From the NCBI GenBank assembly GCA_900188465.1, contig FZPE01000001.1, positions 1,302,001-1,366,000 of the forward strand: DNA of 64,000 nucleotides, given 5' to 3'. Position numbers and translations under genes: made by a program. The notes beneath the pieces are model-generated. The model was not told the origin of the DNA. It ran no database searches and saw nothing but the letters and a program-made list of their open reading frames with translations. Of this stretch, positions 37,088 through 45,101 are shown piece by piece; positions within the stretch are counted from its first letter, which is position 1; every line of letters begins with the position of its first letter. The stretch comes from Micrococcales bacterium KH10. GTDB lineage: Bacteria > Actinomycetota > Actinomycetes > Actinomycetales > Cellulomonadaceae.

Positions 37088-37163
37088 TGGTGCGCCCGGA
37101 GGGATTCGAACCCCCAACCTTCTGATCCGTAGTCAGATGCTCTATCCGTTGAGCTACGGGCGC
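37088..37163 (-). tRNA. tRNA-Arg (ACG)
   Basis: A full cloverleaf can be folded on the minus strand. Acceptor arms are GCGCCCG and CGGGCGC, the D-arm TAGCTCAACGGATAGAGCA, the anticodon arm TCTGA-CTACGGA-TCAGA with anticodon ACG, and the T-loop GGTTCGAATCC. The 3' CCA is encoded (TGG on the plus strand). It reads CGN Arg codons after A34 deamination. Confidence 0.97.
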
Positions 37164-37315
37164 ATGGCCACTGAATGAGTGCTCATTGTTTGAGGCCATC
37201 GGAGACTCTACCCTAATTCGGACTGAATCCCCAAACTCAATGACTCCGCCGCGCACTGGGAGAACTCGTCACTGACATGCTAGCGCACCAGAACGGCCTA
37301 ATGAAGCCAATTGCG

Positions 37316-37404
37316 CGGAGACGGAGGGATTCGAACCCTCGAACGGGTTGCCCCGTTACCACCTTAGCAGGGTGGCGCACTAGACCAGACTATGCGACGT
37401 CTCC
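37316..37404 (-). tRNA. tRNA-Ser (GCT)
   Basis: Class II tRNA of 89 nt. The acceptor stem is GGAGACG/CGTCTCC, the anticodon arm CCACC-CTGCTAA-GGTGG gives anticodon GCT, a long variable arm contains ACGGGGCAACCCGT, and the T-loop is GGTTCGAATCC. No CCA is encoded. It lies 152 nt upstream of tRNA-Arg on the same strand and may share its transcript. Confidence 0.97.
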
Positions 37405-39178: not shown

Positions 39179-39196
39179 CCAACGTGACTAACTTGG

Positions 39197-39284
39197 CGGT
39201 GGGTGTGGGATTTGAACCCACGGTACGGGGTCACCGTACACCAGTTTTCAAGACTGGCTCATTCGGCCGCTCTGACAACCCACC
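39197..39284 (-). tRNA. tRNA-Ser (TGA)
   Basis: Class II tRNA of 88 nt. Acceptor arms are GGTGGGT/ACCCACC, the anticodon arm CCAGT-CTTGAAA-ACTGG gives anticodon TGA, the long variable arm contains TACGGTGACCCCGTA, and the T-loop is GGTTCAAATCC. No CCA is encoded. Confidence 0.97.
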
Positions 39285-39350: not shown

Positions 39351-39968
39351 TCAGGCTGCAGGCTTACGAAGCCGTGCCATCGCGTGCTGCACCAGTGCGA
39401 TCAGTGTCTGCTTGGTGGCAGCACGCGACCGCGCGTCCGTGTACATCATCGGAACGTCCGCCGGAACCTGCAAAGCTTCACGCACATCTTCGATACGGTG
39501 CTTGGCGATTCCGTCGAAGCAGTTGACTCCCACGACGAATGGAATACGACGGCTTTCGAAGTAGTCCACAGCCGGGAAGCACTGGTCAAGTCGATCGGTG
39601 TCAACGAGCACAACGCCACCAATGGCACCGCGCACCAGGTCATCCCACATGAACAAGAAGCGGTCTTGTCCTGGCGTACCAAACAGGTAGAGCCACAATG
39701 ATCCCGGCAATTCGATGCGACCGAAATCCATCGCGACCGTCGTCGTGGTCTTTCGGTCTGAGACGCCACCCGCGTCATCGACTCCCACCGAGTGCTCGGT
39801 CATCGCAGCTTCGGTGTTCAGCGGCTCGATGTCGGAAATGGATCCGATGAAGGTCGTCTTGCCGACAGCGAAGCCACCTGCCACCACAATCTTGACGACG
39901 GTGGGGGCTGGCACTTGCTGTGCGGCTGCCGGGGCGGTTGTCACGTTGTCAGAGGGCGGAAATGCCAT
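39351..39968 (-). CDS. cvnD: Conservon GTP-binding protein (CvnD-like)
   Basis: Small Ras-like GTPase of 205 residues, last member of a conservon. Walker A is GGFAVGKTT (residues 31-39) after a Pro/Ala-rich N-terminus. The switch II region reads LFGTPGQDRFLFMWDDL and the guanine-specificity segment is replaced by VGVNCFDG rather than NKxD, as is usual in this family. In Streptomyces, CvnD proteins act with CvnA-C in a membrane-associated signalling complex. The ATG at 39968 has GGAGAG upstream and lies inside the end of cvnC, so expression is coupled. Confidence 0.92.
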   Translation of the reverse strand: MAFPPSDNVTTAPAAAQQVPAPTVVKIVVAGGFAVGKTTFIGSISDIEPLNTEAAMTEHSVGVDDAGGVSDRKTTTTVAMDFGRIELPGSLWLYLFGTPGQDRFLFMWDDLVRGAIGGVVLVDTDRLDQCFPAVDYFESRRIPFVVGVNCFDGIAKHRIEDVREALQVPADVPMMYTDARSRAATKQTLIALVQHAMARLRKPAA

Positions 39969-40365
39969 TGAGAACACTCTCCAGAACGCTCAGGGACAAT
40001 GCTGGGCTATTAGCGCCACCATGACCGGTGTGGACATCAACGGGGGTGTTGGAATGGATAGTCAACAATCCTGCGTCACTGAGGTCAGAGACGAGGATTC
40101 TTACCACGCCAAGCGGCAACTTCAGTAACGCTGAGAACTCCGCGATGGACACGTAGTTCTCAGCGGCACTTGCCAAGATTGTGCGCTTCTCGGGAGGTAG
40201 ACCTCCCGCGCTGGCTGCCTCCGGACGCGCCGAGACAAGAGTCTCGAGTGGAAGATCCGACGTTGCGGACTTCACTCGCCCTCCAGTGACGGCATACGGA
40301 CGAACCGTGCGAGCCACGGTCTCCTCCCCCAGTCCGGGGGGCCCTTGGTTCGGATTCTGTGTCAT
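39949..40365 (-). CDS. cvnC: DUF742 protein (CvnC-like)
   Basis: Cytoplasmic protein of 138 residues with the DUF742 pattern: RTVRPYAVTGGRVKS near the N-terminus and YVSIAEFSALLKLPLGVVRILVSDL, a winged-helix-like segment. In conservons it bridges the roadblock protein and the GTPase. The ATG at 40365 has GAGGT just upstream; an upstream in-frame GTG or ATG is less likely. It starts 8 nt after the cvnB stop. Confidence 0.9.
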   Translation of the reverse strand: MTQNPNQGPPGLGEETVARTVRPYAVTGGRVKSATSDLPLETLVSARPEAASAGGLPPEKRTILASAAENYVSIAEFSALLKLPLGVVRILVSDLSDAGLLTIHSNTPVDVHTGHGGANSPALSLSVLESVLNGISAL

Positions 40366-40372
40366 GGCTACC

Positions 40373-40825
40373 TCATTGAGCGGACGAAGATCGGGTCTCA
40401 CCATCCACCGGCAGGTTTCCTCGCATTTCAGTGATCAGTTGCGGGGTCAGTGTCTGCTCGGTACGAGTTACAAGCATGGCCATCTCATACCCGATTTGCC
40501 CGACGTCAGCGGTCTCTTCAGCAACGACTGCCAAGACCGATCCGTTGGAAACGCTCATCAGGAACAAGAAGCCTTTGTCCATTTCGACGATGGACTGACG
40601 GACTGCTCCGGTACCGAGTTGACGTGCAGCACCGCGCGTCAGACTCGACATTCCCGAAACAATTGCAGCCATCTGGTCACCGCTCGTGCGGTCTAGGTTC
40701 TCGGACATCGCCATTAGCAAACCGTCAGCGGAGACCACCAGCGTGTGGCGTGTTCCCGGTACGGTCTTGACGAAGTTATCCAGCAACCATCCAAAATTGG
40801 TTGCTTCACTGCTCAGGGCACTCAT
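40373..40825 (-). CDS. cvnB: Roadblock/LC7-domain protein (CvnB-like)
   Basis: Protein of 150 residues, almost entirely one roadblock/LC7 domain: NFGWLLDNFVKTVPGTRHTLVVSADGLLMA and SIVEMDKGFLFLMSVSNGSVLAVVA. Such proteins regulate Ras-like GTPases, here CvnD. AAGGAGG sits 4 nt before the ATG. The gene follows the kinase gene by 55 nt. Confidence 0.95.
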   Translation of the reverse strand: MSALSSEATNFGWLLDNFVKTVPGTRHTLVVSADGLLMAMSENLDRTSGDQMAAIVSGMSSLTRGAARQLGTGAVRQSIVEMDKGFLFLMSVSNGSVLAVVAEETADVGQIGYEMAMLVTRTEQTLTPQLITEMRGNLPVDGETRSSSAQ

Positions 40826-40880: not shown

Positions 40881-43800
40881 TCAATGTGAATCTCCTTCCG
40901 AAGAAGGATCGCTATTATCACCTGGCTCCACACCGGCCTCGCGGCCGCGCGAAGTACCACTTTGGAAGGCTGCCAGTCGAGTCCTCAGCACCGCAGCGTC
41001 GCGGGTGATGCGCTGCTTGGTGGGGTCGTCTTCGGCAGGACCGGCCTCTACTGGGGCCGCCTTCTTGCGCTTTACTAGCCCTGAACCTCCGTCAACCGTC
41101 ATCTCCTGTGGTCGATAACTCGACAACTGACTCAGCTCAGCAAGGGCCTGATCCTGCAAATCTGCACGCGATGCGAGCGTCGCCGCGAGTTCTGGGGACA
41201 TAGAACGAGGCGTGTCGGGCGAATCGAAGTTGAACGCGTCCGGCGACCACTCGTTCTGCTGCGCGCCAGCAGGCTTAGGTGTGAATGAGCCCTGCCCGCC
41301 GAAGTGCGGGAATCCGGAGTCGAAGTCCTGCGATGACGCTGACGCGGCTGGTTGTGAGGCCTCCGCACCATCGGCGCTCCAACTCGATTCCGCAACTGGC
41401 TGCGGTGCTGGTGTCACAGAAGGCGGCTCATAGGCCGTTGGCGCTGGTGTCTCGGGTTGCGCGGGGGGCGACTGGGTCCCGTCCGGCCGATACCCGGTAG
41501 GCGGCGCTGTCGGGCTAGACCACGCCTGCCCGGCAGTGCCGGCGTCAGCAGGAGCTGAATCAGCAGCTGGTTGTTCTTCAGCCGACTTCTTCTTGCCGAA
41601 CAGCTTGCCGAAGATGCCGCGCTTTTCAGGCTTCGCTTCTTTTGCGGCGCCATCGTCGGTCGGGGATCCGGCCACCACATCTCCGAAGCTCGGCGGCGGT
41701 GTGGGTGTCTGTGGCGCATATGGCTGGGCTGGCGCTGCCTCAGCCTGCTGCGCGTACTGCTCAGCGATCTGAGGTTGCGGAGCGTCTTGTGCCGCATAAC
41801 CGTTTGCATCGGTGCCTGCGGCCTCATACGGCGCTGGTTCCGGTTGTGGATCAGCAGGGAACTGTTCCGCATAATCGGCCTGGGGCTGCTCGAACGATTC
41901 TGGTTCGTCCGGCTCCAGCATCGGGACCGCACCATACGATGCCTGCTCACTGTTGTCCCAAGTTGGCTGTGCCAGATCAGCGCTCTCGCTGAAGTCAGCT
42001 GCCGGAGCATAGGCCTGCTGATCTTCCGCGAACTGCAAGTCTGGTTGAACTGAGTTGTCGTCCGGTCGAACCGAATCGTCAGACACCAGCGCGTCAGTGT
42101 CATGGATTGCGGGTTCTGGCGCTGATTCCTCAACGTGGGCCGACTGCTCAGGCACTACTGAACTCTCAGGCACCGCCGGGATCGGTCCGGTGATCGCTGC
42201 CGAAACCCCCTCTGGCCCGCCGTACTCACGCATGAGCCGTTCCAGGTCCTCAGGGCTCGCATGCCGCGGCAACACGATCTTGTGCTCGCTTGGCGCAGCA
42301 CCGTCGACACCGGTCTCAGCAACCGCCGCAACCTGCTGCGGGAAGTCAGCTACAGCCGGATCAGACGCCTCGGGCTGCTCGAAGGCCGGCACTTCGGTCG
42401 CCGGTTCTGACGTGCCAGGTTGCACTTCTTCAGCGACCGGTGCCGACTCGGCAGGCGCAGATTCGCCAAGTTGCGGTGTCCACTCTGGTTCTGCGCTGGG
42501 TGCGCTCGGAGCAGCGGCAGGCTGTTCCAGCGGCAGGTCGGAACTCGTCCTGAACTGTGAGAAGACTGCAGCACGATCCGGCAATCCAGCGGATTCGTGA
42601 CCAGTCGGTTCCGGCTCCGCAATGGTGGGCTCGTATCGTGCAGGGTCTTCAACTGGAGCCGCGCCCGTCTGGTCGGCGCTTCCAGCGACTTCAGCCAAAT
42701 CGCTCGATGCCCGGAACTGCGAGAACATCGAAGCGCGTCGTTCGGTGTTAACAATCGGCGTTTCTTCGAAGGGCTCTTCGACCACCGGAGTCGAGCCGGT
42801 GGCTGTGCCACGGGTGGGCAGTCCGGCGCCACGTGACGGCAAACCGCCGGGTTCGAAACTGGCCTGTTGTAGCGGCTGCCAGTCCGAGGCTTCAGCGTCC
42901 GGGGTCACCCCGATCGCGGAAACATCTGGTGCGGCGATCTCAGGCAAAACGATGGCGTTCTCGTCGTAGTCCGGCCCGGTCATGGTGCCACCCACCGGGG
43001 CCGCACTAGTGATCGGAGCTGGTTCTGCAGGCGCGTCACCATCGCCTGCGCCCCTACGACGTGGCATTCCAGTCGCGGTCATACCGTCAGTCAACGACGC
43101 CAGGTCGACCTCTTGGACGGGCGCTGGCGGCACCCATTCCTCTGAATCTTGGATCTCTGCCGCGCTGCGCTGGACCGGCGCGAGCGGTTCAATCGGTTCT
43201 TGAACGTCCGCAGCGGTGGCGGCGAACAACTTCGCCGGGAACGCCACGATAACGAGCGTTCCGCCGTCGGGAGCGGCTTCGAAGTTGACGTGAGCCTCAA
43301 GACGCTCTGCCAGACGACCGACCACGAGCAGACCCAGTCGCTGAGCACCCACGACATCGGTAGCGGAGCGAGATGACACCTTGAGGTTCGCTTCAGCGAT
43401 TTCCTCTTGCGTCATACCGAGACCGAAGTCGCGAATCGCGACAGAAACGTAGTCCTGGTCGGCGTTCGTCGTCACTTCGACCTGCTCCGAGGGATCGGAG
43501 AACATCGTCGCGTTTTCAAGCAGCTCCGCCAGCAGGTGCGCCGCGTGCAGCGCGTTGTGGCCGAGCATCATCGGGTCCTGCAGCAGCGTCAATGAAACGC
43601 GATCATACGCCTCGATCTCAGACGACGCGGTACGGACCACGTCGGAGAGAGCCATCGGCTCACGAACACGACGACCAGAGTCAATACCCGCGAGCACCAG
43701 CAGTGATTCAGAGTTTCGACGCATTCGGGTAGCGAGGTGGTCGAGTCGGAACAGGTTCGACAGGACTGTCGGATCTTCTTCGGCTCGTTCCAACTCATCG

Positions 43801-45101
43801 AGGAAGGACAGCTGCCTGTTCAGCAGCGTGTGGTCACGACGCGCCACGTTGACGAACATCTCAGCAATCGAGCCACGCAGCGCTGCCTGCTCCTGAGCCA
43901 CCTCGATGGTGGTCTCGTTCATATCGTTGAGAACTGTCGCCAGTTGACCGATCTCATCCTTGGACTTCACTTCGATCGGATCAATCGTCATGGTCGGTGC
44001 CACACCGGGAACAGCAACCTGTTCAACCAGGGTCGGCAACTCGTCACGGACCTTGGTAGCCGCAGCGGTCAGACGTGACAGCGGAACCACAATACGACGT
44101 GCGATCAGCAGCGCGAGGAGCAGCGAAAGAATAACCGACGCCAAAGCGATGCTGGCCGTCACGATAGCTTGAGTACGTGCTTCGTTAGCTGCGGCAGTAA
44201 CCGTGTCGACCAGACGGTTGCGAATACCACCCTGGAAGATCGCGACTTGGTTCTCGAAGAAGGTTGTGTCCGCGGTCCACGCGTCAGCCTGTTCCGTGGT
44301 GATCGCGTTCGGCCTGTTCGCGAGGATCACGGCACGTAGCGCACGGTGCTGCGTAGCCATATCGGTAATGGGAATCTCACGGATTTCCAGGTCCGCCAAC
44401 GCATTAACTGTCTGAGAGATCAGCAAGTCAGTGTTCTGGATTGCCGACATGGCGTTACGCACAGTGGGGTCGTCCGGGCTGGCCGTGGCACGGTTCTCCA
44501 CGATGTTGCCGACAACGCGCACTTCATTGGAGTACGCCGCACGCAGTTGGAACGTGTTGGCGTACAGCGAGAAATACGCGGCGACATGCCGGTCCGACAT
44601 CGCGTCGGTCACGACGTTGTAGAAGTCTTCTTGGCTACGGATCACCGAGGAATAGACCGCAACGACCATCGGTTCGGCATTGATCTCGTCCTTGTCAACC
44701 AGCGAGGCATCGAGGAGATCGCGATCTAGACCGCGCAGACCCGCTCTTGCGTTCGCCCATGCAGTTTCCACTGTGGCGGAGAAGCGGCCGAAGTCAATCT
44801 GGGAGGTTTGTTCGTTGTAAACCTTGAGGGCACGGTCTGTGTTGGCTCGCCGCGACTCGAGCATCACATCGGATACATCGGCGCCGTTGGCGATCTGCAG
44901 GGTAAGGGTGTACTCCTCTTGCAACGCAGACATCAAAATGTCGTGCGCCGGAGTCGACTCAGCCAGCAACTGCGATTCACGTCCCACCAACGCGGTCGTC
45001 ACTGATTGCACGGCGATGATCGCGGCAGCGGCAATCAAGACGACGATAGGGACTGCCAGGGTAGCGAGGATCTTTCCTCGCACACTCAGTCGGCGGAGCA
45101 T
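40881..45101 (-). CDS. cvnA: Conservon sensor histidine-kinase-like protein with long disordered tail (CvnA-like)
   Basis: Membrane sensor of 1406 residues. The first membrane helix is near residues 12-33; an extracellular nitrate/nitrite-sensor-like helical domain covers about 40-310; the second helix is at 312-335, followed by HAMP to about 400. The dimerisation segment is LDHLATRMRRNSESLLVLAG (450-470). The ATPase domain shows LLAELLENATMFSDPSEQ (N-box, about 522-540) and DFGLGMTQEE (G1). From about 630 to the end lies a Pro/Ala/Glu/Gln-rich tail of some 775 residues, with FGKLFGKKKSAEEQ and two copies of FSQFR-SSDL. GGAGGG precedes the ATG. It heads the cvnABCD operon. Confidence 0.9.
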   Translation of the reverse strand: MLRRLSVRGKILATLAVPIVVLIAAAAIIAVQSVTTALVGRESQLLAESTPAHDILMSALQEEYTLTLQIANGADVSDVMLESRRANTDRALKVYNEQTSQIDFGRFSATVETAWANARAGLRGLDRDLLDASLVDKDEINAEPMVVAVYSSVIRSQEDFYNVVTDAMSDRHVAAYFSLYANTFQLRAAYSNEVRVVGNIVENRATASPDDPTVRNAMSAIQNTDLLISQTVNALADLEIREIPITDMATQHRALRAVILANRPNAITTEQADAWTADTTFFENQVAIFQGGIRNRLVDTVTAAANEARTQAIVTASIALASVILSLLLALLIARRIVVPLSRLTAAATKVRDELPTLVEQVAVPGVAPTMTIDPIEVKSKDEIGQLATVLNDMNETTIEVAQEQAALRGSIAEMFVNVARRDHTLLNRQLSFLDELERAEEDPTVLSNLFRLDHLATRMRRNSESLLVLAGIDSGRRVREPMALSDVVRTASSEIEAYDRVSLTLLQDPMMLGHNALHAAHLLAELLENATMFSDPSEQVEVTTNADQDYVSVAIRDFGLGMTQEEIAEANLKVSSRSATDVVGAQRLGLLVVGRLAERLEAHVNFEAAPDGGTLVIVAFPAKLFAATAADVQEPIEPLAPVQRSAAEIQDSEEWVPPAPVQEVDLASLTDGMTATGMPRRRGAGDGDAPAEPAPITSAAPVGGTMTGPDYDENAIVLPEIAAPDVSAIGVTPDAEASDWQPLQQASFEPGGLPSRGAGLPTRGTATGSTPVVEEPFEETPIVNTERRASMFSQFRASSDLAEVAGSADQTGAAPVEDPARYEPTIAEPEPTGHESAGLPDRAAVFSQFRTSSDLPLEQPAAAPSAPSAEPEWTPQLGESAPAESAPVAEEVQPGTSEPATEVPAFEQPEASDPAVADFPQQVAAVAETGVDGAAPSEHKIVLPRHASPEDLERLMREYGGPEGVSAAITGPIPAVPESSVVPEQSAHVEESAPEPAIHDTDALVSDDSVRPDDNSVQPDLQFAEDQQAYAPAADFSESADLAQPTWDNSEQASYGAVPMLEPDEPESFEQPQADYAEQFPADPQPEPAPYEAAGTDANGYAAQDAPQPQIAEQYAQQAEAAPAQPYAPQTPTPPPSFGDVVAGSPTDDGAAKEAKPEKRGIFGKLFGKKKSAEEQPAADSAPADAGTAGQAWSSPTAPPTGYRPDGTQSPPAQPETPAPTAYEPPSVTPAPQPVAESSWSADGAEASQPAASASSQDFDSGFPHFGGQGSFTPKPAGAQQNEWSPDAFNFDSPDTPRSMSPELAATLASRADLQDQALAELSQLSSYRPQEMTVDGGSGLVKRKKAAPVEAGPAEDDPTKQRITRDAAVLRTRLAAFQSGTSRGREAGVEPGDNSDPSSEGDSH

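Follow-up and report, generated by a model that had tools for sequence, protein, structure and literature searches.

Conserved short motifs in fixed order along the disordered C-terminal tail of a CvnA sensor kinase-like protein from Micrococcales bacterium KH10

The stretch of Micrococcales bacterium KH10 analysed here (the window; 64,000 nucleotides of contig FZPE01000001.1) encodes a 1406-residue sensor histidine kinase-like protein, CvnA, on its minus strand. CvnA ends in a long disordered tail that contains about eight short conserved islands in fixed order, one of which is the FSQFR motif. The protein combines a HAMP domain with a HATPase domain, and its gene is followed directly downstream by genes for a Roadblock protein, a DUF742 protein, and a small GTPase. 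The cvnA open reading frame and then cvnB, cvnC, and cvnD lie on one strand, and the locus is a conservon, also called an actinobacterial G protein system. Its genes and the main regions of CvnA are as follows.

40881..45101, minus strand: cvnA, 1406-residue sensor histidine kinase-like protein (open reading frame; HAMP and HATPase_c matches)
44112..45014, minus strand: sensor region, residues about 30-330, all-helical, NIT-type (AlphaFold model, NasR match, Pfam NIT in aligned sequences)
43920..44108, minus strand: HAMP domain, residues 332-394 (domain search)
43737..43739, minus strand: candidate phospho-acceptor His455 (LFRLDHLATRMRR), invariant in 39 aligned sequences (H125 of alignment A1)
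43233..43550, minus strand: HATPase_c domain, residues 518-623 (domain search; fold matches to solved histidine kinases)
40884..43226, minus strand: long disordered tail, residues 626-1406 (composition; AlphaFold confidence)
40373..40825, minus strand: cvnB, Roadblock/LC7 protein (PF03259, 5.7e-24)
39949..40404, minus strand: cvnC, DUF742 protein (PF05331, 5.4e-25)
39351..39977, minus strand: cvnD, small GTPase (PF03029, 9.8e-27)

AlphaFold models residues 1-410 with a mean predicted local distance difference test (pLDDT) score of 93.2. The top PDB match of the sensor is NasR (4akk, E 1.1e-5), a NIT-domain protein; NasR is an antiterminator, whereas CvnA is a membrane kinase. Pfam NIT is matched in 42 of 51 aligned sequences, with no match in the window's CvnA taken alone. 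On the basis of the fold match and the aligned sequences, CvnA carries the NIT-type extracytoplasmic sensor that is a feature of most CvnAs. CvnA8 of Streptomyces coelicolor and MfpE of mycobacteria share this type of sensor, the HAMP and HATPase domains, the invariant histidine, and the Roadblock-DUF742-GTPase operon. His455 may serve as the phospho-acceptor, given its likeness to H183 of CvnA8 (PMC13343842).

The tail comprises 781 residues (626-1406) and outsizes the sensor and kinase parts together (residues 1-625). It is rich in proline (13.6%), alanine (16.9%), and glutamate (9.3%), a composition of disorder, and pLDDT falls under 50 in 650 of the 1076 modelled residues. Relatives were drawn from 121 genomes of the family, including Cellulomonas, Oerskovia, Promicromonospora, Sanguibacter, Jonesia, and kin. 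The kinase part was matched in 117 genomes and at orthologue grade (E below 1e-100) in 114, the window included; 80 of the other 113 loci were retrieved, which gives a family alignment of 81 sequences. The tail's length is ordinary in this setting, as the 77 complete family tails span 531-1040 residues (median 722) and the window's exceeds 46 of them. Family tails barely align outside the islands, which run in the order LTDGxTxxGMPRRR, W-x-P, LPxR repeats, FSxFR, a genus-level helical pair (residues 941-973), a KRGxF patch, and a C-terminal block. In the AlphaFold model, the first FSQFR copy and islands 5, 7, and 9 form helices in an otherwise unstructured tail. An island is counted as present by profile when its score exceeds the shuffle threshold.

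43053..43112, minus strand: island 1, EVDLASLTDGMTATGMPRRR, residues 664-683 (81 of 81 family tails above the shuffle threshold)
42807..42881, minus strand: island 3, W741-x-P, then LPSR and LPTR copies, residues 741-765 (alignment; LP.R enrichment)
42702..42743, minus strand: first FSQFR motif, residues 787-800, conserved family-wide (R789, F793, F796, R797)
42540..42581, minus strand: second FSQFR motif, residues 841-854, an extra genus-level copy (two copies in the window, L036, and L037 only)
42183..42281, minus strand: island 5, KIVLPRHASPEDLERLMREYGGPEGVSAAITGP, residues 941-973 (all four species of the genus: window, L036, L037, L038)
41586..41627, minus strand: basic/aromatic patch EKRGIFGKLFGKKK, residues 1159-1172 (79 of 81 family tails above the shuffle threshold)
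41109..41201, minus strand: island 7, helix ...LQDQALAELSQLSSYRP, residues 1301-1331 (78 of 81 family sequences)
41061..41084, minus strand: island 8, GLxRR-type motif SGLVKRKK, residues 1340-1347 (L1342 and R1345 in 78 of 78)
40938..41006, minus strand: island 9, C-terminal amphipathic helix TRDAAVLRTRLAAFQSGTSRGRE, residues 1366-1388 (R1367, D1368, and R1373 in 78 of 78)

The two FSQFR copies read ERRASMFSQFRASSDL (residues 787-802) and PDRAAVFSQFRTSSDL (residues 841-856). They lie 54 residues apart and, with the basic patch KRGIFGKLFGKKK, are present as the sequence-only reading described. The best 14-residue self-match within the tail has 11 identities, compared with 7-9 in 12 shuffled tails. 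Among the 11 residues identical between the copies, seven differ in codon (including TCG versus AGT for one serine), so their likeness is maintained at the protein level. Recent DNA duplication is ruled out by these many synonymous differences and by a nucleotide identity of 28/60 over a 20-codon stretch.

Conservation centers on a core, R...F..FR (R789, F793, F796, R797), which is identical in all 81 aligned family sequences; the pattern occurs in 0.2 of 81 shuffled tails. A pattern scan of the tails recovered it in 80 of 81, the start of the L105 tail having been misplaced. The shuffled-tail controls rule out that the motifs arose by chance or from low complexity. The "SSDL" portion is not retained in orthologues, with the top residue reaching 21-29 of 81 at each position, and the repetition does not extend beyond the genus, where three of the four species (window, L036, and L037) carry two copies at spacings of 54, 59, and 56 residues. 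Residues 789, 792, 793, 796, and 797 share one helix face, and copy 1 is modelled as a helix (787-797; block pLDDT 46-50 versus 35-40 alongside). By profile, the motif is found in 81/81 family tails, 13 of 18 orthologues from other families of the order, and 2 of 22 tails of other orders; among 40 paralogues (20 nearer and 20 distant), one has it. Direct listing of the 18 gives F..FR in 11 and F..FT in two (L130 and L133); the same expressions match none of the 22 tails outside the order and none of the 40 paralogues.

Two further ideas about the motif were rejected. Phosphorylation of Ser794 is unlikely as a conserved function, since serine occupies this position in only 70 of 81 sequences and is otherwise replaced by Arg, Asn, Ala, or Thr. 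The second copy is followed by SSDLPLEQP, and CvnC contains ATSDLPLETLV; this likeness (SSDLPLE and SDLPLE) is probably coincidence because orthologous copies lack it.

The remaining islands differ in their reach. A T..G[LM]P[RK]R-type pattern for island 1 occurs in all 81 family tails and in 9 of 22 tails of other orders. In island 3, W741 and P743 are invariant (81/81 each), as is L761 (80/80). Family tails average 3.11 copies of LP.R versus 0.33 when shuffled, an excess of about tenfold, and all the other groups show an excess as well (3.56 versus 0.32, 2.59 versus 0.25, 1.35 versus 0.19, and 1.25 versus 0.06). Island 5 forms helices at 950-960 and 963-971 (block pLDDT 66-75). The basic KRGxF patch is found by profile in 79/81 family tails versus 2/18 and 2/22 outside the family. 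Islands 7 and 9 are modelled as helices at 1303-1328 (block pLDDT 63-80) and 1369-1389 (block pLDDT 82).

Islands 7-9 together make up the C-terminal block (ALAELSxLSxYRP, GLxRR, and RDAxxLRxRLxxFxSGTxRGR). By profile, it is present in 78 of 81 family sequences, the other three being cut by contig ends, and in 18/18 orthologues from the rest of the order and 21/22 from other orders; the paralogues that carry it number 16/20 among the nearer and 2/20 among the distant ones. L127, one of the 18, is cut by a contig end before its C-terminus, so its pass is probably due to chance; L135, among the 22, is also cut by a contig end. A held-out set of 80 loci, with four incomplete ones left out, contains islands 7-9 in 49/49 tails of the Streptomyces lineage (0.0 shuffled) and in 26/27 nearer tails, which partly overlap the training genomes. 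The single miss is Demequina sediminis (L219), whose tail seems frame-shifted after FSxFR and has a Pro/Arg-rich nonsense C-terminal part unlike that of its relatives. Streptomyces-lineage tails end in GGVTTSGLPRRVPRANLVPG...RAPDDVRGRLTNLRRGIAQGR, which resembles islands 1, 8, and 9. The LPxR repeats and the C-terminal module are the two features that reach furthest beyond the family.

Two CvnA-like proteins carry a GLxRR/helix module of the form RRVRGAxLxxL...MSxLQSGVxxARR in tandem at their C-terminal ends, with three copies in L166 and two in L164. This arrangement suggests a multivalent docking unit.

The cvnB, cvnC, and cvnD genes (cvnBCD) lie downstream of cvnA in 75 of 80 family loci, and the remaining five loci end at contig ends. 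Three paralogues from the same family (L157-L159) have their own cvnBCD, tails of 216-327 residues, and the C-terminal block; FSxFR was not found in these tails, nor in 18 distant paralogues with their own cvnBCD, which have LPQRRSRR-like and AEEAGxWxGAFF-type segments instead. L156, a CvnA without cvnBCD, lacks the C-terminal block. After eight of 160 loci were dropped for contig ends, 143 of the 152 tabulated have both cvnBCD and the module, four have cvnBCD only, one has the module without full cvnBCD, and four have neither (Fisher p 1.6e-5). One locus tabulated as cvnBCD only, L165, has a CvnA open reading frame that ends 53 residues past the kinase domain and some 970 bases short of cvnB. 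Its close homologue L167 has a tail of 388 residues, and the short tail of L165 is probably a frameshift or assembly error.

The C-terminal module is therefore the better candidate for docking CvnB-D, since short-tailed paralogues with cvnBCD keep it without FSxFR; it is also far wider in distribution than FSxFR and tracks cvnBCD better. FSxFR is instead a candidate for contact with the membrane, with its own kinase, or with a partner specific to the lineage. The sequence-only reading had treated the tail as unusually long and proposed that its FSQFR-SSDL motifs bind partners, perhaps CvnB, CvnC, or CvnD. Its motif core is strongly conserved in orthologues, one of the two points by which that reading could have been refuted, and copy 1 is modelled as a helix at low confidence; the unusual length and the SSDL portion did not hold, and the link of FSxFR to CvnB-D found no support.

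The tail may act as a docking strip of short motifs that fold on binding, a proposal whose chances we regard as evenly balanced. It would be a flexible cytoplasmic segment in which disordered P/A/E-rich spacer separates the motifs. The old part, consisting of the LPxR repeats, the C-terminal GLxRR motif, and the amphipathic helix, most likely keeps the kinase's own CvnB, CvnC, or CvnD nearby. The newer part, FSxFR with its preceding arginine, would be a lineage-specific amphipathic helical motif whose likeliest target is another partner or a surface of the CvnA-D complex peculiar to the lineage, and its doubling in the genus would raise avidity. The conservation, order, and distribution of the motifs and their modelled helices are observed, whereas each binding event, the partners, and the gain in avidity are inferred. 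Several points weigh against this proposal. The table of cvnBCD and module is weak, as the module patterns were set after the tails were read and those loci that are related do not count as independent. Just three loci are devoid of cvnBCD, and two of these (L194 and L195; 28-32% identity) could be ordinary kinases; in a fourth, L142, B and C were found and D was not. Of the 18 orthologues from other families of the order, five give no FSxFR profile match, so the motif is dispensable there. Finally, the helix of copy 1 is of low confidence, and copy 2 has no helix in the AlphaFold model.

Alternatively, FSxFR and the KRGxF patch may be membrane-contact segments that hold the tail flat on the inner membrane face beside the kinase, which we consider unlikely. 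The patch EKRGIFGKLFGKKK is both basic and aromatic, is similar to membrane-targeting segments like the one in FtsY, and is widely retained in the family, and the FSxFR helix has a hydrophobic face flanked by arginine. However, the exact F..FR spacing and invariant arginine are stricter than lipid binding usually needs, and the basic patch has no helix in the AlphaFold model. It is less probable still that the islands closest to the kinase part (LTDGxTxxGMPRRR, perhaps joined by FSxFR) bend back onto its HATPase or DHp domain to regulate it. Island 1 begins about 40 residues past the HATPase domain, is fully conserved in the family, and has two short strands in the AlphaFold model; CvnF8 is modelled as acting at the HATPase domain of CvnA8 in the available portion of PMC13343842. 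The confidence of the strands is only moderate, however (block pLDDT 60-69), and FSxFR lies 64-180 residues away from island 1 in a low-confidence part of the model. A passive low-complexity spacer with a motif repeated by chance is highly improbable: most of the tail is unalignable, variable in length, and of low pLDDT, but its invariant islands stand in fixed order and are absent from shuffled tails, a conservation that contradicts the spacer reading.

The docking-strip proposal may extend further. CvnA tails across the class Actinomycetes may share a docking code in which multivalent LPxR motifs and the C-terminal GLxRR/amphipathic helix assemble the Roadblock-DUF742-GTPase set and lineage-specific motifs like FSxFR recruit extra effectors, a generalization that we hold tentatively and regard as somewhat doubtful. 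If true, the CvnA kinase would resemble a G-protein receptor-like scaffold that signals by recruitment and not by phosphotransfer alone.

A disordered C-terminal kinase tail with a short motif that binds a downstream protein is also described for WalK of Streptococcus mutans in the available portion of PMC9087282. The WalK tail binds its response regulator through one Trp-containing W-acidic motif, whereas the CvnA tail spans 781 residues with about eight islands, W741-x-P among them, and the CvnA operon encodes no response regulator. No description of conserved CvnA tail motifs was found in searches of an open-access library. None of the terms "tail", "disordered", "C-terminal", or "C-terminus" appears in PMC13343842, which calls the phosphorylation target of CvnA8 unknown; a term search of the accessible text of PMC8510531 had no match, and the longer C-terminal part of MfpE is reported without notable conservation in the portion of the preprint PMC13015309 at hand. 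In these partial sources, the CvnA tail is treated as unconserved or left unmentioned, and the recent literature has yet to settle how the signal is transferred from CvnA to CvnB, CvnC, and CvnD. The motifs are pinpointed at 9-25 residues, and the coupling step is therefore directly testable by peptides and point mutants.

Just downstream of the operon and on its strand are three tRNA genes (37088-37163, 37315-37404, and 39194-39284; Arg-ACG, Ser-GCT, and Ser-TGA), the nearest of which lies 66 bases past the end of cvnD.

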